Position numbers and translations under genes: made by a program. A DNA stretch of 51,891 nucleotides, taken from Bacteroidota bacterium (lineage in GTDB: Bacteria; Bacteroidota; Ignavibacteria; Ignavibacteriales; Melioribacteraceae). The stretch covers positions 1 to 51,891 of the forward strand of contig JAJYXU010000131.1 of NCBI GenBank assembly GCA_021801605.1. The letters are read 5' to 3'. Shown piece after piece: positions 6,347-18,544 of the stretch (positions are counted from its first letter, which is position 1; each line of letters begins with the position of its first letter). Below the pieces are notes generated by a model that worked only from the letters and a program-made list of their open reading frames with translations, did not search any database and had not been told where the DNA came from.

Positions 6347-7366
6347 CTACTTTAGTTTTCCGTGATAAATAATGTTGTAGCCTGTTTTGTTATCGAATGC
6401 GTGCAGAAATACATCTTTCTCTAAAACCAGCGCAGTGGAACCATATTCTATATTGTTCGGAAATTTTAATATATACTTTAAATCAGTACCATTATAATGT
6501 AATAAACCGTCTTTCATTTGAATTAATAAATCATTTTTATTTTTGCCCCATACTTGCCCTTTAAAATTGGGATAATTTATTTCAAGAAAATCATCGAGGT
6601 TTCCGTCAAAATATCTAAAAATTCTATTGCCTTTACTTATATATAAATAACCATCTATATCATTCATTGTAAAATTTTCTCCTACATCTTGATATAAAAT
6701 AGTCTTTATGTTTTTTCCATCATATTCAAGAAGTCTTGTAGTATCCATAATTTCTTTATTATCTAAATAAGCCAAGAAATAGTATTTATTATTTTTTGAG
6801 CTATACCTTACCTTGTACAAATTACCATAGTTCTTCAATACAAGCTCTAACTGCCAACTAATGCCATTATTTTTATAAATTAGTCCATCCCTATTGTAGG
6901 GTATGGCCTTCCCTCCACCAGCATAGACCTCATTATCATTTTTACCAGCCATACTAAAAAAATCAATCTCTACACCTTCATATAAAAACTGTGGAGACGA
7001 TGTAAATGTATTATTCTTATAATTCCAGATGCGCCCTTCATGAGTGCTTATCCACAAACTGTTTTCCGATCCCCAAAGAGAAACAGTGTTCCCTACCGGC
7101 GTTCGTGTTTCTCTGTACCATTTGGTTCCGTCATAACGGTATATGTTTTCAAACACTGAGCCAACCAAACTCACCATCCAGACATCATTTACCGTTTTTC
7201 CCCATAATGAATTAAAGTAAACGTAGTATGCTTTTATTGTATCTGCCGTCCATGTATAATCTCTTCTGCCGGGTTGCGGTTCGGGTTCTGTTGGGTTGCT
7301 GTTGCATGAGTTAGCAATTATTATTAATACAACCACTGTAATTACTAATAATATTTTTTGTGTCAT
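6347..7366 (-). CDS. lipoprotein with WG-x-x-x-NDVW repeats (paralog 1)
   Basis: A 339-residue protein with a lipoprotein signal (hydrophobic 4-18, lipobox IANSC) and a linker rich in P and E (NPTEPEPQPGRRDYTW). The body has repeated motifs LWGKTVNDVWMV, LWGSENSLWIS and VWGKNKNDLLIQ, each followed by a YDGTKW/YNGTDLKY element. This pattern is common in bacterial beta-propeller-like surface proteins that lack a known activity. It is clearly related to the next gene upstream (7548-8597), with the same PQPGRRDYxWTxDT linker, so the pair arose by tandem duplication. Probably an outer-membrane or periplasmic lipoprotein. No Shine-Dalgarno sequence is seen before the ATG. The gap 7367-7547 holds only a weak GGGCT...AGCCC hairpin (7454-7486). 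Confidence 0.8.
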   Translation of the reverse strand: MTQKILLVITVVVLIIIANSCNSNPTEPEPQPGRRDYTWTADTIKAYYVYFNSLWGKTVNDVWMVSLVGSVFENIYRYDGTKWYRETRTPVGNTVSLWGSENSLWISTHEGRIWNYKNNTFTSSPQFLYEGVEIDFFSMAGKNDNEVYAGGGKAIPYNRDGLIYKNNGISWQLELVLKNYGNLYKVRYSSKNNKYYFLAYLDNKEIMDTTRLLEYDGKNIKTILYQDVGENFTMNDIDGYLYISKGNRIFRYFDGNLDDFLEINYPNFKGQVWGKNKNDLLIQMKDGLLHYNGTDLKYILKFPNNIEYGSTALVLEKDVFLHAFDNKTGYNIIYHGKLK

Positions 7367-7547: not shown

Positions 7548-8597
7548 CTAATCGTTTAGTTTGCCATGCAAGATCATATTTCTACTACTGTTATTATCAT
7601 AAAAACCACAGAATATCTCTCTATCAAAAAAAGCAGGCTCTCCTCCTATAATTTTATTGGCGATGCTGTTATATTTAATAAGATACTGAATATCTGTTCC
7701 ATTGAAATGTGCTAACCCATCTCTCATACTAATAAATATATCTTTTGAATTTCTTCCAAAGAGGTAATACCAAAAATTTGGGAGATCAACTGAAAACTGT
7801 TTGACAAAGGATTCTCCTCTAAATAGATATATGTCTTTACCAATTAAGAAATATAATTCCTTATCAATAAGACTAAAATTTCCAAAAATAATTTTATCAG
7901 TGAAGTTCGAATAAATTTCTTTAAGCTGGTTTCCATTTAATTCATAAAATGCAATCGTATCGCTAACTGTAGTGCTAGTTCGAAGCGCAAAAATATAGAC
8001 TTTATTTTGTTTTTTTCTAATTGAGATAAATTGAGAATTAAAATTTACTTTTAGAATTTCTTGCCATGTATAGCCGTCATAGTGAAGAACAAAACCCCGC
8101 CATAAGTCCTTGCCATTAACTATATACGAAATTATTCCACAAGCATAAACATCGTTAGGTTGTGGTCCCCAAATGTTATATATACTAACATTATGAGAAC
8201 CTTCCACAATGTATCTGTAATTCTCGCTCCATCTTGTTCCGTCATAATGCCAAATTCTACCATTATTGTCTCCACCCATCCAAATGTTATTTGCACTAAA
8301 ACCAAAAAGTGTGTTTCCTGCACAAAGAATCGGTTCATTTTTATATGTAATCCATTTAGCCCCATCGTAATGTAAAAGACGATCTTTAGAATCTCCTCCT
8401 GCCCCAACTACCCACACGTCATTTGGGGATGAACCCCAGACTGCACCAATAAAATTCATTGGCATATTAAGTGTATCCACCGTCCACACATAATCTCTTC
8501 TGCCGGGCTGTGGTTCTGATTCAGTCGGACCATTATTGCAAGAGATAAGAATTGTCAAAAGATAAATTGTTGCTGCAAATTTTAGGTAGCGCTTCAA
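7548..8597 (-). CDS. lipoprotein with WG-x-x-x-NDVW repeats (paralog 2)
   Basis: A 349-residue paralog of the downstream gene. It has a signal peptide and lipobox (TILISC), the linker PQPGRRDYVWTVDT, then repeats AVWGSSPNDVWVVG, FGFSANNIWMG, IWGPQPNDVYACG and LFGRNSKDIFISM, each paired with LHYDGAKW-like elements. This spacing suggests a propeller or beta-solenoid fold. The start is TTG at 8597 with GGAGG four bases upstream. An ATG a few bases earlier is in another frame. Function unknown; cell-surface location is inferred from the lipobox. Two matching operator-like palindromes lie 68-143 bp upstream (8665-8740), so this pair of genes may be under specific control. Confidence 0.8.
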   Translation of the reverse strand: MKRYLKFAATIYLLTILISCNNGPTESEPQPGRRDYVWTVDTLNMPMNFIGAVWGSSPNDVWVVGAGGDSKDRLLHYDGAKWITYKNEPILCAGNTLFGFSANNIWMGGDNNGRIWHYDGTRWSENYRYIVEGSHNVSIYNIWGPQPNDVYACGIISYIVNGKDLWRGFVLHYDGYTWQEILKVNFNSQFISIRKKQNKVYIFALRTSTTVSDTIAFYELNGNQLKEIYSNFTDKIIFGNFSLIDKELYFLIGKDIYLFRGESFVKQFSVDLPNFWYYLFGRNSKDIFISMRDGLAHFNGTDIQYLIKYNSIANKIIGGEPAFFDREIFCGFYDNNSSRNMILHGKLND

Positions 8598-8664
8598 CTA
8601 TCCTCCGCATTTTTAACATTGAGAAAACATTTTTGCCAATTAAATATCAATAACTATTTTAAAT

Positions 8665-8740
8665 AAAACATTAGTACTTGTACTAATGTTTTTAAATATT
8701 TACGGTGTTTTTGGCAAAAAGGTTTAGTAGTTGTACTAAA
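8665..8740 (-). promoter_or_regulatory. paired operator-like palindromes (TTAGTAC-TT-GTACTAA)
   Basis: A perfect inverted repeat with 13-bp arms (AAAACATTAGTAC, TT, GTACTAATGTTTT; 8665-8692) is followed 30 bp away by a second copy of the core, TTTAGTAGTTGTACTAAA (8723-8740), differing by one base in one arm. Two matching dyads of this size in a promoter-length gap upstream of the lipoprotein gene look like tandem binding sites for a dimeric repressor. No regulator gene is adjacent, so the protein is unknown. The rest of the gap to 8883 shows nothing else. Confidence 0.55.
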
Positions 8741-8883
8741 GTCGAATAAATTTAAAGTGTCCGATTTAATTAGTGAGGAGATGTTTTTTATGTAGGAGAT
8801 GATTCCAGTTGTAAAAAAAAATATCCCGGCATGAAATGATAAAAGAAAAAATGAAACGCTCCAACGAACGTCTCAATACAAAA

Positions 8884-10383
8884 TTAAAATTGGAAATAGA
8901 TAAACGGCTGAATGTCCGCGGTCTTGAATTGTGCTACAATCCAAATTGCGATTACAAAAATCAATATCTTTACAGGTAACGGCATTGCAGTAATAATTTT
9001 TTGAAGCCATATTCCAAGTCTGGATGGTAAAAAGTGAAATAAGTAACCAATTACAATTAACCCAAGAATCAGCGGAAGTTTTTCGGCGAATTGTAAAAAA
9101 ACTTCTGCGTGGAAGAAATCAAAAATTTGAGAAAGCATATCTTTCGCAATCTGCAAATCGCTAAATCTGAAAAGCAGAAATGAAAACGCTATGAAGTGAA
9201 ATGTAATTACAATCTGGAAGAATCTTAAAAATCTTGTGTTGTTAATGCGTAAAAATTTATAAAGTTTTTCTTTCGGTTTCTTAAAGAACAACGAGATTGA
9301 CATCAGCACGCCATGAAACACGCCCCACAGAATAAAATTCCATCCGGCGCCGTGCCATAAACCGCAGACGAAAAATGTAACAATAAGAGCAATAACGTTT
9401 CCAAAAATTTTCAATCTGCGCGAAGATATCTGAATCGGTTTGAAAAGATAATCTTTAAGCCAATTCGAAAGAGAGATGTGCCATCGCCGCCAGAAATCCG
9501 CAATACTTGTTGCTTTGAACGGATAGTTAAAATTATCCATTAATTTAAAACCGAGAAGAAGCGCAATGCCTATTGCCATATCCGAGTAGCCGGAGAAATC
9601 GCAATAGATTTGAAGCACGTAAGCATAAATCGCCAGCAAATTTTCAACGCCGGTAAAGCGCAGCGGAAAATCAAAAATTCTATCTACAAAGTTGAGACTG
9701 ATATAATCTGCTATCACAACTTTCTTAATCAGACCAAGCATAATTAAAAATAGTGCGCGACCAATATCTTCCCTAGAAATAAATGGTTCATGGTCAATCT
9801 GTGGGAGAAAATCTGCCGCACGGTCGATTGGTCCAAGTAAAATATTCGGGAAGAAGAAAATGTATAAGCTGAAATCGCGCAAACTGTTTGTGGGTTTAAG
9901 TGTGTCGTAGTAGATATCAAACACATATGTGAGCGATTTGAATGTGTAAAATGAAATTCCTATCGGAAGAAAGATCGAAAGCGGATCGATATTATGTTTG
10001 CTTATATCAGCAATGATCTGCAGAATAAAATTTGTGTATTTGAAATAACCAAGCAGCCCGATATTAACTATCAACGCAACAATGAGAAATATTCTTTTCT
10101 TTGTAAAGTTCTCTGTGGTGGCAATCAACTTGCCCGCATAAAAATTAGCGACAGCGGAAACAACTAGAATTAAGAAATACAATCCTGCCGCTTTATAATA
10201 AAAGTAGAGCGAAAAAAATATCAGCAGAAATATTCTTGCCGCTTTGTTCTTTCCAAGCAGATTATAAAAGATTAAGAACCCTAAGAAGAGAATTAAAAAT
10301 AAACTTGTGCTGAAGATGAGCGGATCGTTCGGATCGTATTTTAAGAGAGAAAAGATTTTTTCAAGACTGATGGATGAAAACAT
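8884..10383 (-). CDS. MBOAT-family O-acyltransferase (AlgI/DltB-like)
   Basis: A 499-residue polytopic membrane protein. Hallmarks of the AlgI/DltB/PatA branch are all visible: PIGISFYTFKSLTYVFDIY (141-159), LGPIDRAADF (183-192), YCDFSGYSDMAIG (260-272), FWRRWHISLSNWLKDYLF (297-314) and GLWHGAGWNFILWG (341-354), with the presumed catalytic H344 and the conserved H302. Family role: moves an acyl group from a cytoplasmic donor through the membrane to an extracytoplasmic acceptor. Here the donor is probably the acyl-ACP made by the two genes immediately upstream on the same strand, and the acceptor partner one of the SGNH proteins. It is the last gene of the cassette, 133 bp after the ACP gene. 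No Shine-Dalgarno sequence is visible. Confidence 0.93.
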   Translation of the reverse strand: MFSSISLEKIFSLLKYDPNDPLIFSTSLFLILFLGFLIFYNLLGKNKAARIFLLIFFSLYFYYKAAGLYFLILVVSAVANFYAGKLIATTENFTKKRIFLIVALIVNIGLLGYFKYTNFILQIIADISKHNIDPLSIFLPIGISFYTFKSLTYVFDIYYDTLKPTNSLRDFSLYIFFFPNILLGPIDRAADFLPQIDHEPFISREDIGRALFLIMLGLIKKVVIADYISLNFVDRIFDFPLRFTGVENLLAIYAYVLQIYCDFSGYSDMAIGIALLLGFKLMDNFNYPFKATSIADFWRRWHISLSNWLKDYLFKPIQISSRRLKIFGNVIALIVTFFVCGLWHGAGWNFILWGVFHGVLMSISLFFKKPKEKLYKFLRINNTRFLRFFQIVITFHFIAFSFLLFRFSDLQIAKDMLSQIFDFFHAEVFLQFAEKLPLILGLIVIGYLFHFLPSRLGIWLQKIITAMPLPVKILIFVIAIWIVAQFKTADIQPFIYFQF

Positions 10384-10443
10384 AGGCAGTTGGTTTTGTT
10401 TGTGATGAAAAAATAATTCTAATAGAACACTGATCTTTATGAT

Positions 10444-10496
10444 GATTATGATTCGTTATGATTGATCATAGAAAATCATAAACGATCATAATAATC
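10444..10496. repeat. imperfect inverted repeat in the ACP-MBOAT gap
   Basis: GATTATGATTCGTTATGATT (10444-10463) and the complement of its mirror at 10474-10496 (AATCATAAACGATCATAATA and following) form an AT-rich hairpin with small gaps. It lies between the ACP and MBOAT genes of the cassette. It could attenuate or stabilise the transcript, or simply be an intergenic repeat. Confidence 0.4.
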
Positions 10497-10516
10497 TGCG
10501 TTCCATTACTTAAAAT

Positions 10517-10750
10517 CTACTTGCCGGTTTTTAGATCAACAAGTTTTTGAAGATCGCCGACATTTTTTAAGCGCAGTACCTCGTAACTCTTAAACTTTAC
10601 GTTAAAAGACTTCTCAACAGCTAAAATTATATTTATGTGATTCAGAGAATCCCAACCCGGAACTTCCGGCGCCATAGTTTCGTCCTGAAGATCGAAATCG
10701 TCAAGATTAAGTTCTGTTAGAATTACTTTTTTCAGTTCTTGTGAAATCAT
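10517..10750 (-). CDS. acyl carrier protein
   Basis: A 77-residue acidic helical protein with the phosphopantetheine site GWDSLNHI (S35). It has no sign of a fatty-acid-synthesis partner nearby. The ATG at 10750 overlaps the stop of the ligase gene (TAATG) and has GGAG seven bases upstream, so translation is coupled. A TTG four codons earlier is less likely. The tight coupling to a fatty-acyl-AMP-ligase-like gene and an MBOAT gene is the arrangement of DltA-DltC-DltB. This ACP is therefore probably a dedicated donor carrier for surface acylation rather than the housekeeping AcpP. Confidence 0.9.
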   Translation of the reverse strand: MISQELKKVILTELNLDDFDLQDETMAPEVPGWDSLNHINIILAVEKSFNVKFKSYEVLRLKNVGDLQKLVDLKTGK

Positions 10751-12510
10751 TATCTGCTCCAAACTTGTTTGTCTTCGCGACTTAGGATTCTTTCTTTATT
10801 TGCATTTCTGCTCGGTTTGCCGGCGGAACTTTTAATTAACCATCGTGGCGGCACAAGATAAACTTTGTGAATATTCACATCTATTGCCATTCCTGCTCTC
10901 AAAATATCCATGCGGATTTTATTTTTTCCAATTTCGGTTTCATCTTTTATTTCCGCTACGACCGCGATTTGTTCGGTTCCCATCTGTTCATCTTCTTCAC
11001 CGAAAGAAATTACACGCCCCGGAATTATTCCATCAACTTGATTGAGCGCATCTTCTATATCTTCAGGATAAATATTTTTACCGGCGACAATTATCAAATC
11101 TTTTTTTCTACCTATGATAAAAAATTCGTTTTGATATCTGAAACCCCAATCGCCGGTAAAGTACCAGCCGTTCTCAACAACCTCTGCTGTCTTTTCCGGA
11201 TAGTTGCGGTAACCATCGAACATAGAAACAGACTTAACTGCTACTTCTCCAACTATTCCATCTTCAACGTCTTTCCGGTTTTCATCAACAATTCGAGCGT
11301 CGCATCCATCAATAAGTTTGCCGCAAGAGACCGATACACGTTTAACGGAATTTTCATCGGCGAACTTCATTACACCGTGTGATAATTCATTTCTATCTAA
11401 AATTAATTCTTTAATTGGTTTTCCCGGGTCGGTTAGTGTAAGGCAAAGAGAAACTTCCGCCATTCCATATAATACTGTAAGAGCAAGCGGGTTGAATCTA
11501 TACTTCACAAACTTTTCGGTAAATTTTATGTGACTATCATGCCGCACTGGTTCTGCGCCGTTAATAACTAATCTTAAACTCTCAAGTGAGATATCGCTTA
11601 ATTCATCGTCGTGAATTTTTTCTGCCAAAACATTATATGCAAAATTTGGAAGACAAGTTAATGTTCCTTTCTCTTTTGTAATTGCTTCCAACAAAAGAAT
11701 AGGCGCAAGCACCCATTCAAAAGGATTGATTTGAATTGTTGTAATTCCATAAGCTAAAGGAATTTGAAAACACGCAATCAAACCAAAATCATGATAAAGA
11801 GGAAGCCAGCTTACAACTTTATCGCTGTCCGATAATTTTAACGCTTTACCAAGATTATGGGTATGATTTAAAACTGCCCGGTGAGATAATATTACAGGCT
11901 TTTGTAAACCGGTTGTGCCTGATGAATGTTGTAACAAAATTGGTTCGTCTTCTCTAACAGAAAGAGCAATTAGTTCTATCTCAGCATCTGACTTCGGATC
12001 AATATCGTTTTCAATATTCCAATCAAGAGGAAAGAAAACAGATTTGATTGTGCTGCCGGGTTTTTCAATTAAAGGATGAATAACGGGGTCAAGTTCACGT
12101 TCGGTTAAAATATAATCGAGACCGGAACGTTGAGCCATTCCTTCAATACCTTGACGGAACTTATCTGGATGTAAACGGGGATTAGGATAAGCAAGAACAG
12201 CGGGTAACGCACCCATGCGGGAAATTCCAAGATATAAAGGATAGAAAAATAGATTGTGGTGCATTACTATTGCGCAGACATCCCCTTTTTTGATTCCTGC
12301 TTCTCTAGCTTTAACAGAATATTTTTTTGCCGTCTCAATTAGATTTTTGTAAGTCCAACGCATTGGCTCTTCGCCTGCAACCCAGTGAACAATGGCTTCA
12401 CGATCAGGATTTTTTTCTGCATTTGCTTGCCATCTTTCCCAAAGAGTTTTTCCTTGACCAGCCGGATCCTTTGCTGAATCACCGGGAGAGTTATTTCCAA
12501 TATTGTTCAC
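10750..12510 (-). CDS. fatty-acyl-AMP-ligase-like adenylating enzyme
   Basis: A 586-residue member of the ANL (AMP-binding) superfamily. Core motifs: A3 HSSGTTGLQKPV (195-206), A5 YGMAEVSL (348-355), A7 FTGDWGF (451-457), A8 IIGRKKDLIIVAGKNIYPED (465-484), and the C-terminal catalytic lysine in SSAGKPSR (K565). WLPLYHDFGLI and LPNFAYNVLAEK match the FAAL branch more than DltA or acyl-CoA synthetases, so the expected reaction is fatty acid + ATP to acyl-AMP and then transfer to the coupled ACP. The start is GTG at 12510, with no obvious ribosome site, so the true start may be slightly downstream. It is tightly coupled to the ACP gene (TAATG). Substrate chain length cannot be told. Confidence 0.9.
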   Translation of the reverse strand: MNNIGNNSPGDSAKDPAGQGKTLWERWQANAEKNPDREAIVHWVAGEEPMRWTYKNLIETAKKYSVKAREAGIKKGDVCAIVMHHNLFFYPLYLGISRMGALPAVLAYPNPRLHPDKFRQGIEGMAQRSGLDYILTERELDPVIHPLIEKPGSTIKSVFFPLDWNIENDIDPKSDAEIELIALSVREDEPILLQHSSGTTGLQKPVILSHRAVLNHTHNLGKALKLSDSDKVVSWLPLYHDFGLIACFQIPLAYGITTIQINPFEWVLAPILLLEAITKEKGTLTCLPNFAYNVLAEKIHDDELSDISLESLRLVINGAEPVRHDSHIKFTEKFVKYRFNPLALTVLYGMAEVSLCLTLTDPGKPIKELILDRNELSHGVMKFADENSVKRVSVSCGKLIDGCDARIVDENRKDVEDGIVGEVAVKSVSMFDGYRNYPEKTAEVVENGWYFTGDWGFRYQNEFFIIGRKKDLIIVAGKNIYPEDIEDALNQVDGIIPGRVISFGEEDEQMGTEQIAVVAEIKDETEIGKNKIRMDILRAGMAIDVNIHKVYLVPPRWLIKSSAGKPSRNANKERILSREDKQVWSR

Positions 12511-12541
12511 GCCGACTCTTATTTATTCAAAACTTGATTAT

Positions 12542-13954
12542 CTACTTATATAGTTTTAATAATGCCCCGGTTAGTAAATCTGCAATCTTCTTTGCGCCCT
12601 GGTCGTTGAAATGGATAAAATCTTTAAATGCCAGAGGCGGATTTGCATTTACCCAATTAGGCATAGAGTTTTCTCCGCCCATTGCTTCAAATAAATTCCA
12701 GATAGCAACATCGGCAAGCTTTGCAATATTTTTCTGTGTTTCTAGAAGCCGTAAAATACCCGGATCGGTTACAAAGCTGGCTCCTTTCTTCATAGACCGA
12801 TCGTGAATAGAGATCATTAAGAAACTTGTTTTAGGAAAAACAGATTTTAAATGATTAATAACTTTTACCATTTCTTTTTCATACCGACTGTAATCTGTAT
12901 TACGCGATCCGGCAATGTTTAAACCGAATTCAAGAATGATTAATTTGTAATCGAGGTATTTAGAAAAATCTTTTAAAATACCTTCTTGAAGAGAACCAAT
13001 ATCAACGCCGGTATTTCCGCGCAGAGGAAAATTATCTACATACACGCCGGGTTCATTTTCTAAACTTACTCCATAAAAATAAGCTTGATCTGCCATTGGA
13101 AATTCTATTCGGATTGATTTTGCGCGAGATGCGGGTTTCAAAACCAATTCTTGAAGAGCGCTTCCTGTTTTAAGCGCTACTGTTTGTTTTACTCCGCCAT
13201 CGAACGAGTAACTAATAGTTGAGTTCTTTGCATTTGCATAATAGAGACGGACTAAACTAAAATCTTTTAAAGATTTTCTGAAGCGCGTCGTTTCATATTG
13301 AACCCATGCGTTGCCTTTTGGCACAAACGCTTCTCCGCTAATTCCAAGCGGAAGTCCTTTCGGATTGCTTGTGTAGAGTGCGGCAGATTCCCAATTATCC
13401 GAGAATGAATGTTTTGTGGTTTGCCTGAACATAATATCTTGAGAAGTAATTCCAAGCCAGCCAACGCCGTTACCGCCAAATTTATCCTGAAGGGTCCCGC
13501 GAATATCCGACGTAATTAAATCACCTTCAATTGCAGAATCGCCAAAATGTGCAATGCGGACATTTTTTAATTTTGCTTTTTTAACTGCATCGAAGAAGTA
13601 ACTTAATTGTTTTATGTTTCCCGTGATGGGAGTATTTTTATCCTGAAGTGTTAATTCATAGGGATCTCCGGATTTATCAAATGCCGAATCAAAAAATGAA
13701 AACACAGAAGAAAAAATATTTGTGAAATCAAGAGATGCTTCATTAACACATGGAGTTATTGTTTTTAAACCACTAACCGGTTGCAGTCCGCTTGCCGGTT
13801 CAACTTTTATATCAGAAAAAATGTCAACGTTTTTCAGCTTAAAATTTATTGCTGGAATCTCGTATTCAATTTTCGCAAAAGAAATCGCATATAAAATGAT
13901 GATTGTAAGTGCGACAATTATTAACGGTTCTCCTAATTTGTTTTCGTTATCCAT
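12542..13954 (-). CDS. membrane-anchored SGNH/GDSL protein, cassette partner
   Basis: A 470-residue protein with one N-terminal membrane anchor (residues 10-27), a low-complexity periplasmic linker and an SGNH domain from ~130. Catalytic blocks: HFGDSAIEGD (S140), LEFGLNIAG (block III) and DFIHFNDQG (D445, H448). Between blocks I and III lies a ~130-residue beta-rich insertion (AWVQYETTRF ... FDGGVKQTV), as seen in the peptidoglycan O-acetylesterase Ape1/PatB type, where a carbohydrate-binding module splits the hydrolase fold. Likely role: accepts an acyl group from the MBOAT protein and attaches it to an envelope glycan, or trims it. It is followed after 31 bp by the ligase gene on the same strand. 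Confidence 0.88.
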   Translation of the reverse strand: MDNENKLGEPLIIVALTIIILYAISFAKIEYEIPAINFKLKNVDIFSDIKVEPASGLQPVSGLKTITPCVNEASLDFTNIFSSVFSFFDSAFDKSGDPYELTLQDKNTPITGNIKQLSYFFDAVKKAKLKNVRIAHFGDSAIEGDLITSDIRGTLQDKFGGNGVGWLGITSQDIMFRQTTKHSFSDNWESAALYTSNPKGLPLGISGEAFVPKGNAWVQYETTRFRKSLKDFSLVRLYYANAKNSTISYSFDGGVKQTVALKTGSALQELVLKPASRAKSIRIEFPMADQAYFYGVSLENEPGVYVDNFPLRGNTGVDIGSLQEGILKDFSKYLDYKLIILEFGLNIAGSRNTDYSRYEKEMVKVINHLKSVFPKTSFLMISIHDRSMKKGASFVTDPGILRLLETQKNIAKLADVAIWNLFEAMGGENSMPNWVNANPPLAFKDFIHFNDQGAKKIADLLTGALLKLYK

Positions 13955-13983
13955 GCTTTGCCCTTCTTAGATTTTTTTGTTCG

Positions 13984-14086
13984 GAAGTTGTCCAAATAGT
14001 AAATTTTCTCTGTGTCTTTGCGCCTCTGTGGTTTATTTTTTATTCATTTTCAAATCTTTTACCACAGAGACTTTTTTGACAACTTC
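13984..14086. repeat. nested inverted repeat between the two SGNH genes
   Basis: Two perfect 9-bp dyads are nested: GAAGTTGTC (13984-13992) with GACAACTTC (14078-14086), and CTCTGTGGT (14024-14032) with ACCACAGAG (14061-14069). This makes a ~100-bp fold-back. The CTCTGTGGT word recurs in related form inside the element at 14957-15108. It most likely belongs to a dispersed intergenic repeat family. Confidence 0.5.
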
Positions 14087-14096
14087 AATGAAAATA

Positions 14097-14825
14097 TTAC
14101 AATTTATATTTCGCTAAAACTTTTTCAACTTCTCTTGCCCAGAGCTTATACGCATCCGCTTTAAAATGAATTCCATCCCAGCTTAATTCGGGACGCAAAA
14201 ATCCATCCTTACCGGCGGTCAACGCGTTAAGATCAATGTAATCAATATTATTCTTCTTCACGTAATCAGAAAGAAGTTTGTTCAACTTATCCACTTCGCG
14301 GTTTCTTCCAAAATTTCCTTCCGGAGTTCCGCCCCAATCTTTTGCATAAGTTTTTGCCGAGTAAGTTGTTGATTGAATCACGGGAATAATATTTCTAGAC
14401 CTCAGTCCTGATACAATGCGAACGTAAACGGCAAAGATTTCATCAACTGGAGTCCAATTATAAATATCATTTAATCCTCCCATAATAAAAACAATTTTCG
14501 GATTCAGTTTGTAGATAGAACTTATTCTTGATTCATAACCATAAATAACATCGCTCGTAATTCCGCGTTCAACAACATTAGAACGACCCAATAATTCATT
14601 CCAAGCTGCACCGTGAGTTAAAGAATTTCCGAGCATAACAATATCTGCCTGACGGGTTTTATATATATCGAACATGGATTGCTGAAAAGGGTAGTTGGGA
14701 TTAGTGCGGTAACGAAGCGTATCCTTTGCCGGCAATTTAGTTTGAGAAAATAATTCGGCGGCGAATAAAATGAGACAAAAACATGCCAGCGTTAATAATG
14801 TATTTCTTGAAAGAATATTCTTCAC
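14097..14825 (-). CDS. secreted SGNH/GDSL hydrolase
   Basis: About 242 residues from a GTG at 14825 that begins a clean signal peptide (KNILSRNTLLTLACFCLILF, ending ELFSQ). The frame also permits a TTG at 14891, which would add 22 residues before the signal peptide. SGNH blocks: IVMLGNSLTHG (block I with N in place of D next to the serine), GGLNDIYNW (block III) and WDGIHFKADAY (D and H of block V). This resembles the PAF-acetylhydrolase-like esterase group, which remove or transfer acetyl or acyl groups on glycans. It lies upstream of the SGNH-ligase-ACP-MBOAT genes on the same strand, with a 142-bp gap that contains a fold-back, so membership in the operon is probable but not certain. Confidence 0.85.
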   Translation of the reverse strand: MKNILSRNTLLTLACFCLILFAAELFSQTKLPAKDTLRYRTNPNYPFQQSMFDIYKTRQADIVMLGNSLTHGAAWNELLGRSNVVERGITSDVIYGYESRISSIYKLNPKIVFIMGGLNDIYNWTPVDEIFAVYVRIVSGLRSRNIIPVIQSTTYSAKTYAKDWGGTPEGNFGRNREVDKLNKLLSDYVKKNNIDYIDLNALTAGKDGFLRPELSWDGIHFKADAYKLWAREVEKVLAKYKL

Positions 14826-14956
14826 TAAATGGCTTTCGAAAATTTTTATGTTTACTTGAATATAAGATAATTCATATCGGCAAAAAATCAAAAATATGTC
14901 ATCTTTTTACGAAGCGTTCCAATCTATATATACATCCGGTAGAATAAGTTATTAAG

Positions 14957-15108
14957 TCACCTTATGCAAGAATTGAAGAAAAGATATTTTCTCCGTGGTT
15001 CTCTGTGCCTGCTCAGTGTTTCTCTCTGTTATTTGTTGGTCTTTATTACACAGAGTGCCACCGAGAAGTCGCAGAGTTACACTGAGATAAAACTTTTGCG
15101 TAAGGTGA
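14957..15108. mobile_element. MITE-like fold-back element with TCACCTTATGCAA ends
   Basis: The ends are 13-bp inverted repeats: TCACCTTATGCAA (14957-14969) and TTGCGTAAGGTGA (15096-15108), one mismatch apart, with similarity continuing a few bases outward. Inside is a second inverted pair (14991-15007 and 15049-15065, 17 positions, 3 mismatches; words CTCTGTG and CACAGAG). The same 13-bp ends recur at 26044-26111. No coding capacity, so any movement would depend on a transposase elsewhere. Its right end nearly touches the stop of the coiled-coil gene. It fills most of the 14826-15112 gap. Confidence 0.65.
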
Positions 15109-15112
15109 ATTA

Positions 15113-16774
15113 TTAATTCTTATTCTTCCCTTCATCGTGATTCATCTTTTTTTCATTTTCTAAGATGCGGAATTTGAGATTTTTCTCCATAGCAATAAGC
15201 TCGGAAATCTTTGCAGTATATTCTTCTTTCTTAATCTCTGTATTTGCTGTTTCGGTTTTGAGCAGACGCAATTCATTTCTCTGGTTAGCAATTTGCTCTT
15301 TCAGCTCTTCTAATTCGCGAGCGGCTTGGGCTGTCTCTAAAACCAATTTCTGCTTGTTGTCGTTTAATCTGGAATAGTTATCGCTGATTTGAATGAAGAG
15401 CTGTCTAATATCTTTCTCGAATGATTCTTTTTTTATTTCCAGGGAAGCGGTCTCCGACTTCATCTGCTGAATAAAAAGTTTTTGTCTGGTTGCCTCGTCT
15501 TTCAAAGTAAGAACTAAATTACTCAGTTCGCCGGATTCTTGTTTTAGATTTGAAATCAACTGTTCTGTTGCAGCCCGTTCTTTCTGAAGTACTTTTGTTA
15601 AACCGCCGTATTCTGCAACTTGAGTCGTTTTCTCGAGAAGAATTTTTTCTTTGTGAGATAGTTCCTTCTCTTTTTCTAAAATCTCCTGACGCAGTGAACT
15701 GAGTTTATTCTTGGATGAATTAAGTTCATCAGTAAATTTTAAAAGAACCTGTGAAAAGTTGTTCTCAACTTTTAGATGTGATTCTTCTATCTCAAATTTA
15801 CGTTTCTCAAGCTCTTCAATTGCTTTCTGTTTTTGATTTACCGATTCGGTCAAAGTCTCTTCATCATTACCTAATTGAAGCAGCTTATCTTGCAGTTCAT
15901 TTTTAACAATCTCAAATTTTCTGATTTCGTCGGATAGTTCGTTTCGTTTATTGGTTAGTTCTTTTACTTCCGAATCAAGTTTTGATATTGTTTCTTTTGT
16001 AAAATTATATCTGGATTCAAACTCGTCAAATTCTTTTTGTCTCTCTCGCAGCAGTTCGCCTATAGAATCGCGTTTGTTTATTAATTCACTATAAAATTTT
16101 TCTTTTTCGGAAAGACGACCGATAATTGCCGATAACGAAGACTCCAGATTGAATTTAATCTCTTCGGCAAGAGAAATTTTTTCGTCCAGCGCTTTTATTG
16201 AATCTGTTTTTTTATTCTCTTCTAACTTAAGCTGATTAATTCTTTCGGTGAGTTCAGATGTATCTAAACCGGCGGCGGTCTGATCTAAAACGACGCGCAA
16301 TTTCTCTTCTTCGTTATGCAAATTGGCAATGCTGTTCTGAAGAGAGCTTTCTTCGGTTACAAGTTTTTCAATAGAGGAATGGAGATCACCCAAATCTTTA
16401 TTGAGCTTCTCAATCTCTATCTGTTTTTCAGAGATAACCTTCTCAACATTCTGCTGAGATTCGGTTTCAATTTCCTTAACTGAAGATTCAAGAGAGAATC
16501 TTTTTTCTGTAAGAGACTTAATTGTTTCCGTTAGTTCGTTAAGTTCTTCTGTTTTAGAAGTGAAGTCAAATACTACCGATTTCAGATCGTTTTTATATCT
16601 TTCAGTTTCGTTAGTAATTTTGTTGAACTCTTTTCTTGCTTCGTTAAGTTTATTCTCGAGTTCAACAAGATTTTGATGTTTTTGGAGGACCTGATGCAGA
16701 GTGTTTTTTAATTCATCGTTCTCTTCTACGAGTTTTTCAATTTCACTTTTTGCCTTCGATGAAAAAAGACTCAT
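15113..16774 (-). CDS. long coiled-coil protein of unknown function
   Basis: A 553-residue protein, almost entirely heptad-patterned and rich in E, K, L, S and N (for example ELTNKRNELSDEIRKFE), from residue ~8 to the end. No signal peptide, membrane segment, Walker motif or hinge is visible, so it is not an SMC ATPase despite the SMC-like texture. It begins MSLFSSKAKSEIEKL and ends in basic residues (HDEGKNKN). The start has AGGAG 11 nt upstream. Possible roles are a cytoplasmic scaffold or filament, or a partner of cell-shape or motility complexes. There is no direct evidence for any. It appears to be a single-gene unit between RfbA and a fold-back element. Confidence 0.8.
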   Translation of the reverse strand: MSLFSSKAKSEIEKLVEENDELKNTLHQVLQKHQNLVELENKLNEARKEFNKITNETERYKNDLKSVVFDFTSKTEELNELTETIKSLTEKRFSLESSVKEIETESQQNVEKVISEKQIEIEKLNKDLGDLHSSIEKLVTEESSLQNSIANLHNEEEKLRVVLDQTAAGLDTSELTERINQLKLEENKKTDSIKALDEKISLAEEIKFNLESSLSAIIGRLSEKEKFYSELINKRDSIGELLRERQKEFDEFESRYNFTKETISKLDSEVKELTNKRNELSDEIRKFEIVKNELQDKLLQLGNDEETLTESVNQKQKAIEELEKRKFEIEESHLKVENNFSQVLLKFTDELNSSKNKLSSLRQEILEKEKELSHKEKILLEKTTQVAEYGGLTKVLQKERAATEQLISNLKQESGELSNLVLTLKDEATRQKLFIQQMKSETASLEIKKESFEKDIRQLFIQISDNYSRLNDNKQKLVLETAQAARELEELKEQIANQRNELRLLKTETANTEIKKEEYTAKISELIAMEKNLKFRILENEKKMNHDEGKNKN

Positions 16775-16898: not shown

Positions 16899-17762
16899 CT
16901 ATTCATCGGCAATACGTTCAAGGTATTTTTTGTAAAGAGAATTCGGAATATTGTCTAAGAGCTTTCCAAATTGATCTTTGTCTATAAATCCTTTTTGATA
17001 TGCTATCTCTTCTATGCACGCAACTTTCAATCCCTGGCGGTCTTCAATAATGCCAAAAAAGTTTGATGCTTTAAGAAGTGCTTCCGGTGTTCCGGTATCA
17101 AGCCATGCTACACCGCGCCCAATCTTTTCAACCATTAACTCTCCACGCTCAAGATATTTTCTGTTAACATCAGTTATCTCAAGCTCGCCTCGTTGAGATG
17201 GTTTTAACTTTTTTGAAATCTCAATCACTTTGTTATCGTAAACGTAAAGACCGGGTACCGCAAAGTTAGATTTAGGCGCATCCGGTTTTTCTTCTATGCT
17301 GATTGCTTTGCCATTCTTTGCAAACTCAATAATACCGTAACGTTCCGGATCTGTAACTTGATATGCAAATATTGTTGCGCCAGATCTATTCTGTTCAACT
17401 GCGCGGTAGAAGAAATCCAACGTGCCGTAAAAAATATTATCGCCTAGAATTAGTGTAATAGAATCATCGCCTATAAATTTTTCGCCGAGTATAAATGATT
17501 GAGCAATTCCATTCGGCGCCGGTTGAACTACATACTCAATTTTCATTCCGATGTGCGATCCGTCTTCAAAAAGTTTTTTGTAGAGGGGAATTGTTTCATC
17601 GTTTGAAATGATAAGAATCTCTCTAATTCCCGCAAGCATTAATATAGAAAAAGGATAATAGATTAGCGGTTTATCATAGATCGTTACAAGCTGCTTGCTG
17701 TAAACTTTTGTCATGGGATACATTCTTGTGCCGGAGCCGCCCGCTAAAATTATTCCTTTCAT
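16899..17762 (-). CDS. rfbA: glucose-1-phosphate thymidylyltransferase
   Basis: 287 residues from the ATG at 17762. The protein opens with the nucleotidyltransferase signature MKGIILAGGSGTRMYPMTK, then KPLIYYPFSILMLAGIREIL, QPAPNGIAQSFILGE, ILGDNIFYG and EKPDAPKSNFAVPGLYVYD, all features of RmlA/RfbA. It makes dTDP-glucose from glucose-1-phosphate and dTTP, the first step to dTDP-rhamnose and related deoxysugars of surface polysaccharides. No other rml gene is nearby. A TTG at 17789 would add nine residues before the conserved start and is rejected. The gene follows a secreted-protein gene by 23 bp, suggesting co-transcription. Confidence 0.95.
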   Translation of the reverse strand: MKGIILAGGSGTRMYPMTKVYSKQLVTIYDKPLIYYPFSILMLAGIREILIISNDETIPLYKKLFEDGSHIGMKIEYVVQPAPNGIAQSFILGEKFIGDDSITLILGDNIFYGTLDFFYRAVEQNRSGATIFAYQVTDPERYGIIEFAKNGKAISIEEKPDAPKSNFAVPGLYVYDNKVIEISKKLKPSQRGELEITDVNRKYLERGELMVEKIGRGVAWLDTGTPEALLKASNFFGIIEDRQGLKVACIEEIAYQKGFIDKDQFGKLLDNIPNSLYKKYLERIADE

Positions 17763-17785
17763 AAAAAATTCCGTTTGTTTTTGGA

Positions 17786-18544
17786 TCAATTTGTGACTGA
17801 AATATAAGCCGTTTTAATTAATAATTCCTTTTCATCATACAGGTAGATTTTATAATCTCCCGGCTTGGTAAACCTGTACTGGAAATATGTATCGTTCCAT
17901 TCGCCGTCTAACTGATACTTTTTAGAATCAATGAATTCGTCGTAATCCGGACTATATTTTGTCTTACGCCATGTATTGATAAGAATTTTTTCCGCGTCTA
18001 GCGGTTGATTGTTGGTTAGATAAATGTAAATCGTTCCGCCTTCAGTGCCGAGAGAAATACTCTGTTTAATGTTAACAGGCTTGCCAGATTGAATTCTGCC
18101 ACAAAGAGTGACTTCAACAGTTGTGTATTTTTGAGTTAAGATAGGTTCTAATTGTTTTGTCTCCTTAGGAGTGCCAATAAAAACCGTTAAGGAAGAAAAA
18201 CGGTTTTTATTTTCATCGGCAAAATAGATTTCAAACTTTCCCTCTTTAGCAAATTTGTAGAAATGCGCAATCCAATTCTCTTTTTCAGGGTTAAAAATTT
18301 TATTTAATTGATTCTCTCCTTCGGTGCCAATTATTCTATCTATGAGAAGATAGATTGTTCTTCCGGAAATTTTTTTATTCTCACCTGAAAATAAAATGCA
18401 TACCGATTGATTGAGAGTGAGATTTGATGAATAGATAAGATCAATCGGCTCGCCGTGGTTTGTGTACGCTTTGCAAAGTGTTATTCGCTGAGCTGGAATT
18501 ACAGCCGCGCATAAAGATACGATAATGAAGAAAATCTTTTTCAA
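17786..18544 (-). CDS. secreted protein of unknown function with two similar halves
   Basis: 252 residues with an N-terminal signal peptide (KKIFFIIVSLCAAVIPAQ). The mature part appears to contain two related beta-sandwich-like modules: one from RITLCKAYTNHGEPIDLIY, the second from VEVTLCGRIQSGKPVNIKQ. Each begins with a xTLC...GxPx pattern and ends in a K-F-x-I-Y-x-A/Y-D-E strand (EGKFEIYFADENK, PGDYKIYLYDEKE). The cysteines may pair. I do not recognise a named family. The start is TTG without a clear ribosome site. Its end lies 23 bp before rfbA on the same strand. Confidence 0.75.
   Translation of the reverse strand: MKKIFFIIVSLCAAVIPAQRITLCKAYTNHGEPIDLIYSSNLTLNQSVCILFSGENKKISGRTIYLLIDRIIGTEGENQLNKIFNPEKENWIAHFYKFAKEGKFEIYFADENKNRFSSLTVFIGTPKETKQLEPILTQKYTTVEVTLCGRIQSGKPVNIKQSISLGTEGGTIYIYLTNNQPLDAEKILINTWRKTKYSPDYDEFIDSKKYQLDGEWNDTYFQYRFTKPGDYKIYLYDEKELLIKTAYISVTN

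Follow-up and report, generated by a model that had tools for sequence, protein, structure and literature searches.

A candidate envelope-glycan O-acylation cluster of Ignavibacteriales with a fatty acyl-AMP ligase and a dedicated acyl carrier

Introduction

What is the role of a fatty acyl-AMP ligase (FAAL) and an acyl carrier protein (ACP) encoded within a cluster that resembles those for O-acylation of the cell envelope? This question is raised by five genes found at positions 8884-14825, on the minus strand, of contig JAJYXU010000131.1 (GCA_021801605.1) from an uncultured Bacteroidota bacterium (Ignavibacteria; Ignavibacteriales; Melioribacteraceae). The window, i.e., the whole stretch of DNA that was analysed, comprises 51,891 nt. 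In order of transcription, the genes encode two SGNH proteins (SGNH1 and SGNH2), the FAAL, the ACP and a membrane-bound O-acyltransferase (MBOAT). An initial annotation had proposed these five genes in this order on one strand, with a ligase coupled to its ACP. All five were indeed located by Pfam or NCBIfam, coordinates and reading frames, and the FAAL stop and the ACP start overlap (TAATG).

The explanation that appears probable is that the locus encodes a machine for O-acylation of envelope glycans, which arose from an ape1b-pat cluster by a switch of the donor from acyl-CoA to acyl-ACP. Such a machine departs from two published statements. MBOAT/SGNH acylation of the envelope is described as fed by acyl-CoA (Pat, Alg) or by a D-alanyl carrier (Dlt), the non-Dlt pathways having no carrier (PMC12148441). 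Bacterial FAALs are said to occur always with polyketide synthase (PKS) genes or hybrid PKS/nonribosomal peptide synthetase (NRPS) genes (PMC8460268). The context of the cassette FAAL is MBOAT/SGNH and not PKS or PKS/NRPS; it should be emphasized that such a context is descriptive of known FAALs and is no catalytic criterion. Below, loci are designated by L and genomes by G.

The ligase and its carrier

According to its sequence and predicted fold, the ligase is a FAAL and not a DltA. Its best sequence matches in the PDB are LpFAAL (3kxw) and EcFAAL (3pbk), and it groups with FAALs in a phylogenetic tree. When its predicted structure (mean predicted local distance difference test, pLDDT, of 89) was compared with the PDB, FAALs occupied rows 1-29 among the best 50 matches listed, FadD32 and FadD23 being counted as FAALs and row 7 being titled just "a mycobacterial protein"; in this list, NRPS adenylation domains and CoA ligases rank behind them. 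According to their titles, top matches hold long acyl adenylates (stearoyl for 7r7f, palmitoyl for 7r7g and C20 for 5ey8). The residues of the E. coli FAAL that block CoA, W224, M231 and F279 (PMC8460268), align with W235, F242 and F290 of the window. Of 28 FAAL rows, those of the window, L103 and L104 have F instead of M at position 242, the other cassette FAALs retaining M. The FAAL-specific helix region shows no gap relative to EcFAAL and the insertion region a single two-residue gap. Furthermore, no DltA was found among the best 25 of 107 NCBIfam matches, so that, given the sequence and the fold, a DltA-type ligase was rejected. The initial annotation had considered the activating enzyme as fatty-acyl rather than D-alanyl. 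Sequence, fold, CoA-blocking residues and tree all agree with this proposal, structure prediction and phylogeny placing the ligase with the FAALs and not in an unrelated branch.

The product of the overlapping gene matches an NCBIfam ACP subfamily (E 3e-7, below the cut-off) and the Pfam PP-binding family (18.3 bits, below the cut-off of 20.8). Its attachment serine is conserved in the ACPs of 36 of 36 relatives. These features suggest that it is the dedicated ACP of the cassette, with a predicted use by the MBOAT.

The MBOAT protein and its predicted docking positions

The MBOAT carries FWRRWH at residue 297, WHG at residue 343 and a C-terminal FIYFQF. The first of these meets the F-W-R/N-R-W-H motif of the AlgI-type Pat MBOATs encoded by clusters for O-acetylation of peptidoglycan (OAP clusters; PMC1199599). 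The last one fits the acyl-shuttle motif FxYxxF, DltB being described without a fused shuttle motif (PMC12148441). The strict motif is found in 27 of the 30 cassette MBOATs of relatives whose loci include FAAL, ACP and MBOAT; those of L065, L070 and L073 retain the Tyr within a motif that varies. A pattern scan of both strands from 8000 to 15500 gave no candidate for a separate DltX with FxYxxF, the matches being the MBOAT C-terminus and one 48-codon antisense frame inside the FAAL gene. The best PDB sequence match of the MBOAT is DltB (E 2e-31). However, the protein scores 200 bits against the DltB equivalog TIGR04091, below the cut-off of 375. This score and the fused shuttle argue against a true DltB; its motifs place the MBOAT among those of the PatA/AlgI kind, the shuttle being part of the same chain.

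DltB contacts DltC through M302, V305, I306, M309 and K312, located on or at the tip of a cytoplasmic helix, and also through R317 (PMC11035591). The first five residues align with K315, Q318, I319, R322 and K325 of the window MBOAT; R317 falls in an alignment gap. A first comparison involved 33 carrier-linked and 21 carrier-less MBOATs, hand-picked, one per locus, L081 being left out. Twelve positions separate these two sets, according to a cut that was fixed before the DltB contact residues were known. At the five docking positions, there is no common residue at four and an overlap of 0.14 at the fifth (mean 0.029), for a mean residue overlap of about 0.62 over all MBOAT positions. A second comparison (41 versus 26) included every row of at least 400 aa from the listed loci of the clade, L081 among them, and omitted L195 (a fragment), the second MBOAT of L056 and duplicates of fetched relatives (L103, L106 and L110, to which L104 is added for the GG count below). 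The overlaps were 0.00, 0.02, 0.04, 0.04 and 0.12 (mean 0.043). When five positions with this spacing were moved along the MBOAT, a value as low was obtained only at the predicted docking positions in either comparison (1/489), and none of 100,000 random five-column sets was as low, these tests ignoring relatedness, since all the carrier-linked rows used belong to one clade.

At the docking helix, carrier-less MBOATs mostly have PLGG. Among 108 MBOATs, GG is missing in 66 of the 67 linked rows and present in 35 of the 41 unlinked ones (two rows, L111_1186 and L135_5527, were excluded when this motif was counted on the tree); the sole linked row with GG is the second MBOAT of the cassette locus L056. 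The MBOAT of the Lindowbacteria locus L108, which is outside the carrier clade, has the contact residues KQIRR, compared with KQIRK in the window. In the other FAAL-linked MBOATs of other phyla, GG is also missing and the remaining docking residues differ. The alignment suggests a possible code in which PLGG would correspond to acyl-CoA and P-[LI]-Q-I or similar, followed by R, to acyl-ACP. At the level of sequence, the residues at the docking positions argue against acetyl-CoA as the donor of the MBOAT.

The two SGNH proteins

The Pfam GDSL match of SGNH2 is weak (2.6e-4, below the cut-off) and is backed by structure and profile. In the predicted model, a helix at the N-terminus (residues 8-26) and a disordered linker accompany an SGNH fold that is interrupted by a beta domain behind the GDS block, in agreement with the initial annotation, which described a membrane-anchored SGNH protein with an inserted beta domain. 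The quality of this model is moderate because it has a pLDDT of 69 and was obtained from 7 sequences. In the VIA-align comparison of this model, SGNH2 matches Ape1 (4k3u) with a Z of 35.2 over 337 residues (root-mean-square deviation 2.9, 21% identity) and the Campylobacter Ape1 with a Z of 32, the next match falling to 17.4 and PatB having 14.2. PatB was thus rejected as the closest match of SGNH2, of which it may still be a relative. DltD does not appear among the 50 matches listed, which carries no weight in either direction. Likewise, a profile search of PDB sequences retrieved 4k3u (5e-24) and the Campylobacter chains (4e-6 to 6e-6). The catalytic Ser and DxxH are also present in nine SGNH2 relatives overlooked by a simple pattern. 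Considering sequence and model together, SGNH2 is identified as a membrane-anchored protein of the Ape1 family. Ape1 was proposed to be a peptidoglycan O-acetylesterase, and ape1b is located upstream of pat in OAP clusters (PMC1199599).

The initial annotation had also proposed a secreted SGNH1. The SGNH assignment is reinforced by the GDSL match; the N-terminal hydrophobic export signal was judged by eye only, so that the protein is probably exported. By sequence, its nearest solved structures are 6njc (sialate O-acetylesterase / lysophospholipase L1) and 7pzg. In some loci (e.g., L073, L074, L079 and L080), SGNH2 is present and SGNH1 was not found nearby, which favours SGNH2 as the transfer partner.

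Origin and co-inheritance of the modules

Relatives of SGNH2 were found in 17 of 119 genomes drawn at the class level and in 23 of 118 drawn at the phylum level; the draws overlap, 12 positive genomes being common to both. Twenty SGNH2 regions were fetched, including 14 from outside the order (L187-L200), which are all such matches there. In these 14 loci, SGNH2 adjoins MBOAT or is separated from it by one SGNH2-like gene, and neither FAAL nor ACP was found by profile in any of them (the MBOAT of L195 runs off the contig).

In the MBOAT tree, which omits 14 Anaerolineae-type loci, L146 and L096, all carrier-linked Ignavibacterial MBOATs except that of L105 constitute one 42-row clade (98). It lies within a larger clade of 68 rows (100), composed of MBOATs that have Ape1-type neighbours, with supports of 82 to 98 for the nesting branches. 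The ACP-only loci form a single clade (98) inside the carrier clade. The FAAL-linked MBOATs of other phyla and of L105 fall elsewhere in the tree, and the FAALs of L105 and L108 nest among Ignavibacterial FAALs. Such a scattering of FAAL-linked MBOATs indicates that the FAAL-ACP module seems to have been joined repeatedly to different MBOAT lineages.

The trees of MBOAT and SGNH2 were compared for 36 loci selected among those in which both genes are complete (not including L189-L200, L075, L046 and others). The 26 carrier-type loci among them are one clade in the MBOAT tree (100/100). The SGNH2 tree rejects this grouping, which costs 72 log units (p-AU 0.0006, approximately unbiased test). According to these phylogenies, the MBOAT travels with the donor module and the SGNH protein follows the lineage more closely, as would be the case if recognition of the donor fell to the MBOAT and that of the acceptor to the SGNH protein. 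The best reading of the cluster is an ape1b-pat O-acylation cluster with an inserted FAAL-ACP donor module.

Distribution in Ignavibacteriales and in other phyla

Fifty-seven genomes of the order, including that of the window, were searched for FAAL at E 1e-60. Matches were found in 34 of them (39 rows). An MBOAT gene lies within 5 kb of 36 of these 39 rows, so that a chance neighbourhood was rejected. Concerning the three others, G055:C19 is elsewhere in its genome, G052:C99 starts a 5.4-kb contig, its upstream neighbour being unseen, and the gene of G010 is split by a contig end. In a survey of 60 loci (L007, L042-L100), FAAL, ACP and MBOAT occur together in 30. Five loci (6 copies) have SGNH2-ACP-MBOAT without FAAL, six have SGNH2-MBOAT without FAAL or ACP (L081 included) and three have SGNH2 without MBOAT; MBOAT is found without SGNH1, SGNH2, FAAL or ACP in the short contig L064 and 15 further loci. 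The cluster proposed initially from a single sequence is therefore syntenic in relatives. In a phylum-wide draw of 247 genomes, FAAL (E 1e-80) was found in 14, all belonging to the order of the window.

Several loci show particular arrangements. Four of the 30 complete loci (L045, L056, L065 and L070) have two FAAL genes, one ACP gene and one cassette MBOAT gene, which possibly corresponds to two acyl substrates. At L081 (G043) and the matching place in G050, a divergent SGNH2-MBOAT locus contains two larger SGNH2-like frames (545 and 734 codons); its MBOAT, which is partly carrier-like, has neither a FAAL nor an ACP of the cassette type beside it. L202 and L204 carry tandem MBOATs behind one SGNH1-SGNH2 pair, without FAAL or ACP.

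Scanning genome contigs with the FAAL alignment led to 80 loci, the best 80 of at least 575 confirmed stretches. The Ignavibacterial FAAL-tree rows L042-L080 were fetched through MBOAT, which biases the frequency of their link; the 57-genome search and the FAAL-led scan give counts free of this bias. A 47-row clade (SH-aLRT, i.e., Shimodaira-Hasegawa-like approximate likelihood ratio test, 100) groups FAALs from Ignavibacteria, Lindowbacteria, Elusimicrobia, Verrucomicrobia and Nannocystis. MBOAT is near 45 of these rows, many of which were MBOAT-fetched, and the 2 others are cut by contig ends. Within the FAAL clade of the window, 14 rows were fetched by FAAL alone, and the 12 that are not cut by contig ends all have ACP and MBOAT nearby.

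The Anaerolineae show another layout: MBOAT, two further proteins, ACP, FAAL. These two SGNH-like proteins, tested against Pfam in L133 only, both gave weak GDSL matches below the cut-off. MBOAT is near 14 of the 16 judged FAAL rows of the main Anaerolineae clade and 15 of the 24 judged rows of the wider one, 7 being undecided. An ACP lies beside FAAL in 14 of 14 Anaerolineae loci examined in a second pass, the first ACP pattern having missed them. No convincing DltX-like open reading frame (ORF) was found in the 14 Anaerolineae-type loci scanned. L123, L126, L128, L133, L134, L141 and similar Anaerolineae loci have the ACP motif IDSF, and several encode a small lipoprotein-like protein. FAAL and MBOAT also occur together in Acidobacteria (L146), Aminicenantes (L147) and Anaerolineae (L154). 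There was no SGNH Pfam call for the partner proteins of L105, L109, L113, L135 and L147, in which a motif scan found just partial matches. In a distant clade of 27 FAALs, MBOAT is near none of the 18 judged rows, 9 being cut by contig ends. The FAAL-ACP module is thus found beside different MBOATs in several phyla.

Proposed mechanism and alternative explanations

In the proposed mechanism, FAAL would convert a free carboxylic acid to acyl-AMP and load the acyl group onto the phosphopantetheine of the dedicated ACP, refusing CoA. Residues 315-325, on the cytoplasmic helix of the MBOAT, would be the docking site of acyl-ACP, from which the acyl group would pass through the MBOAT, with His344, to Tyr496 of the fused FIYFQF. 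The periplasmic SGNH2, anchored beside the MBOAT, would receive it on the GDS serine for transfer to a glycan; peptidoglycan or an associated polymer of the periplasm is the most likely acceptor. SGNH1 could edit or remove acyl groups or assist their transfer. The steps from FAAL to ACP and from ACP to MBOAT are supported by conserved sequence features, predicted fold and evolution. The role of SGNH1, the chain length, the acceptor and the transfer, rather than removal, of acyl groups by SGNH2 are inferred. The route from acyl-AMP through acyl-ACP, MBOAT and SGNH to an envelope glycan had been put forward in the initial annotation. The CoA-blocking residues, the changes at docking positions and the co-inheritance of FAAL-ACP and MBOAT support it indirectly; the group transferred is not necessarily a long fatty acid and the glycan acceptor is a matter of inference.

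Several observations weigh against this mechanism. The Ape1 family to which SGNH2 belongs consists of esterases, so that SGNH2 may remove acyl groups and not add them. The cassette MBOAT of L065 has no WHG and a changed C-terminus. The C-terminal FxYxxF is absent from the MBOATs of the main Anaerolineae clade, and for 9 judged FAALs of Anaerolineae no neighbouring MBOAT was found. A clade of loci has ACP without FAAL (L075, L077, L079, L080 and L100, also L185). Among the six genomes with a FAAL-less cassette, G052 (L184) and G055 (L183) have a FAAL in another place; no FAAL was found at E 1e-60 in G046, G049, G054 and G056, despite the ACP. The carrier can therefore persist without a cassette FAAL in these four genomes. 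This implies either that the ACP can be loaded in another way or that the assemblies are without the gene. Concerning the docking helix, GG is also missing in the carrier-less MBOATs of L081, L187, L188, L189 (twice) and L094, most of which are near the carrier clade, and the carrier-less L081 has R at 322. Since the sister group of the carrier clade is among these unlinked rows, a change of the helix may have preceded the carrier or taken place without it. An independent-pairs (phylogenetic) test of GG gave 3 to 0 (median p 0.25), which is not significant.

Two variants of the acyl-ACP-fed machine concern its substrates. In one of them, whose chances fall a little short of even, the FAAL-fold ligase would activate a small acid (short-chain, hydroxy or branched) and the product would be a short ester on peptidoglycan, close to O-acetylation. 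This would be in keeping with the origin of MBOAT and SGNH2 from O-acetylation-type clusters, the O-acetylesterase family of SGNH2 and the listing of FAALs with C4-C8 substrates, some of them hypothetical (PMC11837247). Furthermore, SGNH2 is common to carrier-fed and carrier-less loci without a matching split, as if similar acyl groups were accepted. However, the solved FAALs closest in fold hold long acyl adenylates and, for acetyl, bypassing CoA would hardly be needed. In the other variant, which we regard as rather unlikely, the acceptor would be another surface polymer, e.g., a rhamnose-containing O-antigen or an exopolysaccharide. The RmlA and coiled-coil genes found upstream in the genus and part of the family would fit such an acceptor, but RmlA is encoded by a general sugar-nucleotide gene, SGNH2 is Ape1-like and the outgroup clusters share the ape1b-pat layout of peptidoglycan O-acetylation clusters (PMC1199599). 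A bolder extension can be advanced tentatively, being more doubtful than the small-acid variant: the cassette would represent a widespread class of envelope O-acylation, as yet undescribed, in which a mobile FAAL-ACP donor module, present in different MBOAT/SGNH systems of at least six phyla, would allow true fatty acids, of medium or long chain, to be esterified to peptidoglycan or other glycans of the periplasm, the MBOAT cytoplasmic helix providing a readable donor code through its residues.

Two other explanations would deprive the cassette of an acyl-ACP-fed MBOAT of the Pat type. FAAL and ACP could belong to a separate pathway for lipids or polyketides and adjoin an ordinary Pat/Ape cluster that depends on acetyl-CoA, as would be consistent with the PKS or PKS/NRPS context described for bacterial FAALs and with the existence of Pat/Ape-like clusters without FAAL. 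This seems improbable, given that FAAL-ACP lies beside different MBOATs in several phyla, that the carrier-linked MBOATs form their own clade, altered at the carrier-docking positions, and that no PKS or NRPS gene is found among the annotated neighbours in the window (ORFs before 25318). Membership of FAAL-ACP in an unrelated PKS/NRPS pathway was rejected on the linkage in the FAAL tree, the MBOAT clade and the docking changes. Finally, a true Dlt system, whose ligase would activate D-alanine or another amino acid and whose MBOAT would be DltB, has the same parts list and DltB is the best PDB match of the MBOAT. The FAAL identity of the ligase, the absence of DltA among the best NCBIfam matches mentioned above, the score below the equivalog cut-off and a shuttle motif foreign to DltB make it very improbable.

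Relation to known systems

The general Dlt scheme (DltA, DltB, DltC, DltD and DltX) shares with the cassette the logic of a ligase, a carrier, an MBOAT and an SGNH protein. Furthermore, the docking stretch and the catalytic His of DltB align with those predicted for the cassette MBOAT. By contrast, the ligase of the cassette is a FAAL, its shuttle peptide is fused to the MBOAT and its SGNH2 is Ape1-like by structure. The qualification of the cluster as Dlt-like in the initial annotation thus holds for the working principle, but MBOAT and SGNH2 stand on the Pat/Ape (peptidoglycan O-acetylation) side.

The OAP clusters (pat with ape1b/ape1c; Weadge et al. 2005, PMC1199599) are similar to the cassette by their AlgI-type MBOAT with F-W-R/N-R-W-H and by a membrane-anchored Ape1-family SGNH protein encoded upstream, with a beta-rich segment after GDS (Ape1a/b). 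An OAP-like SGNH2-MBOAT neighbourhood also exists in the Bacteroidota outgroups. The cassette differs from them by the presence of FAAL and ACP between ape1 and pat and by changes at the donor-helix residues of its MBOAT. In the same way, PatA/PatB of Neisseria and Campylobacter combine an MBOAT carrying a fused FxYxxF with a separate SGNH protein, but PatA is fed by acetyl-CoA, without ligase or carrier (PMC12148441). Systems with a FAAL and a stand-alone ACP, such as JamA/JamB (PMC11837247), share the FAAL fold, the CoA-blocking residues and a dedicated adjacent ACP. They feed PKS/NRPS lines, whereas the neighbours in the cassette are MBOAT and SGNH proteins.

No FAAL-MBOAT(-SGNH-ACP) cassette was found in the literature searched, which largely excluded subscription journals and preprints, so that this is no proof of novelty. 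The cassette combines the Pat type, with its fused shuttle, with a carrier and a ligase of a class familiar from lipopeptides and mycobacterial lipids. Comparable gene sets in other phyla point to a type of cell-surface modification that may so far have gone unrecognised. Should a fatty acid be the group transferred, lipid would be attached directly to the cell wall or to another glycan of the periplasm. From this comparison, one can also derive a possible rule for deducing the donor of an uncharacterised MBOAT from the helix on its cytoplasmic side, and a role for FAALs located outside PKS/NRPS clusters.

Gene coordinates and neighbouring genes

The coordinates of the five genes, of their predicted functional residues and of two upstream neighbours are given in Table 1.

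Table 1. Features of the cluster and of its upstream region (window coordinates)
Feature	Position	Strand	Evidence
MBOAT acyltransferase, 499 aa, PatA/AlgI-type with fused acyl-shuttle motif	8884..10383	-	Pfam MBOAT E 5e-25
FIYFQF, MBOAT residues 494-499, fits FxYxxF; Tyr496 predicted acyl carrier	8887..8904	-	sequence and pattern
Predicted catalytic His344 of WHG, aligned to DltB His336, a named active-site residue (PMC11035591)	9352..9354	-	alignment
Predicted carrier-docking stretch, MBOAT residues 315-325	9409..9441	-	alignment to DltC-contact residues of DltB
ACP, 77 aa from ATG; predicted attachment Ser35 in GWDSL (10646-10648)	10517..10750	-	NCBIfam, conservation
FAAL, 586 aa from GTG	10750..12510	-	AMP-binding E 6e-52; PDB sequence, fold, tree
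SGNH2, Ape1-family, membrane-anchored, 470 aa; GDS 138-140, DxxH 445-448	12542..13954	-	structure and profile
SGNH1, probably exported GDSL/SGNH protein, 242 aa from GTG	14097..14825	-	Pfam Lipase_GDSL_2 E 4e-19
Long coiled-coil protein, 553 aa, conserved upstream neighbour (association only)	15113..16774	-	synteny
RmlA, glucose-1-phosphate thymidylyltransferase, upstream neighbour (association only)	16899..17789	-	NCBIfam TIGR01207 above cut-off; synteny

In most loci of the genus with sufficient flanking sequence, as well as in part of the family, the coiled-coil gene and RmlA lie upstream of the cassette. A single Pfam MBOAT match, which is the MBOAT of the cluster, and a single AcpS-family match are present in the genome (3.24 Mb, 189 contigs). 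At 6347-7366 and 7548-8597, the window also holds two genes without a convincing Pfam match; they are adjacent, similar and lipoprotein-like, and both have an EPQPGRRDY start.

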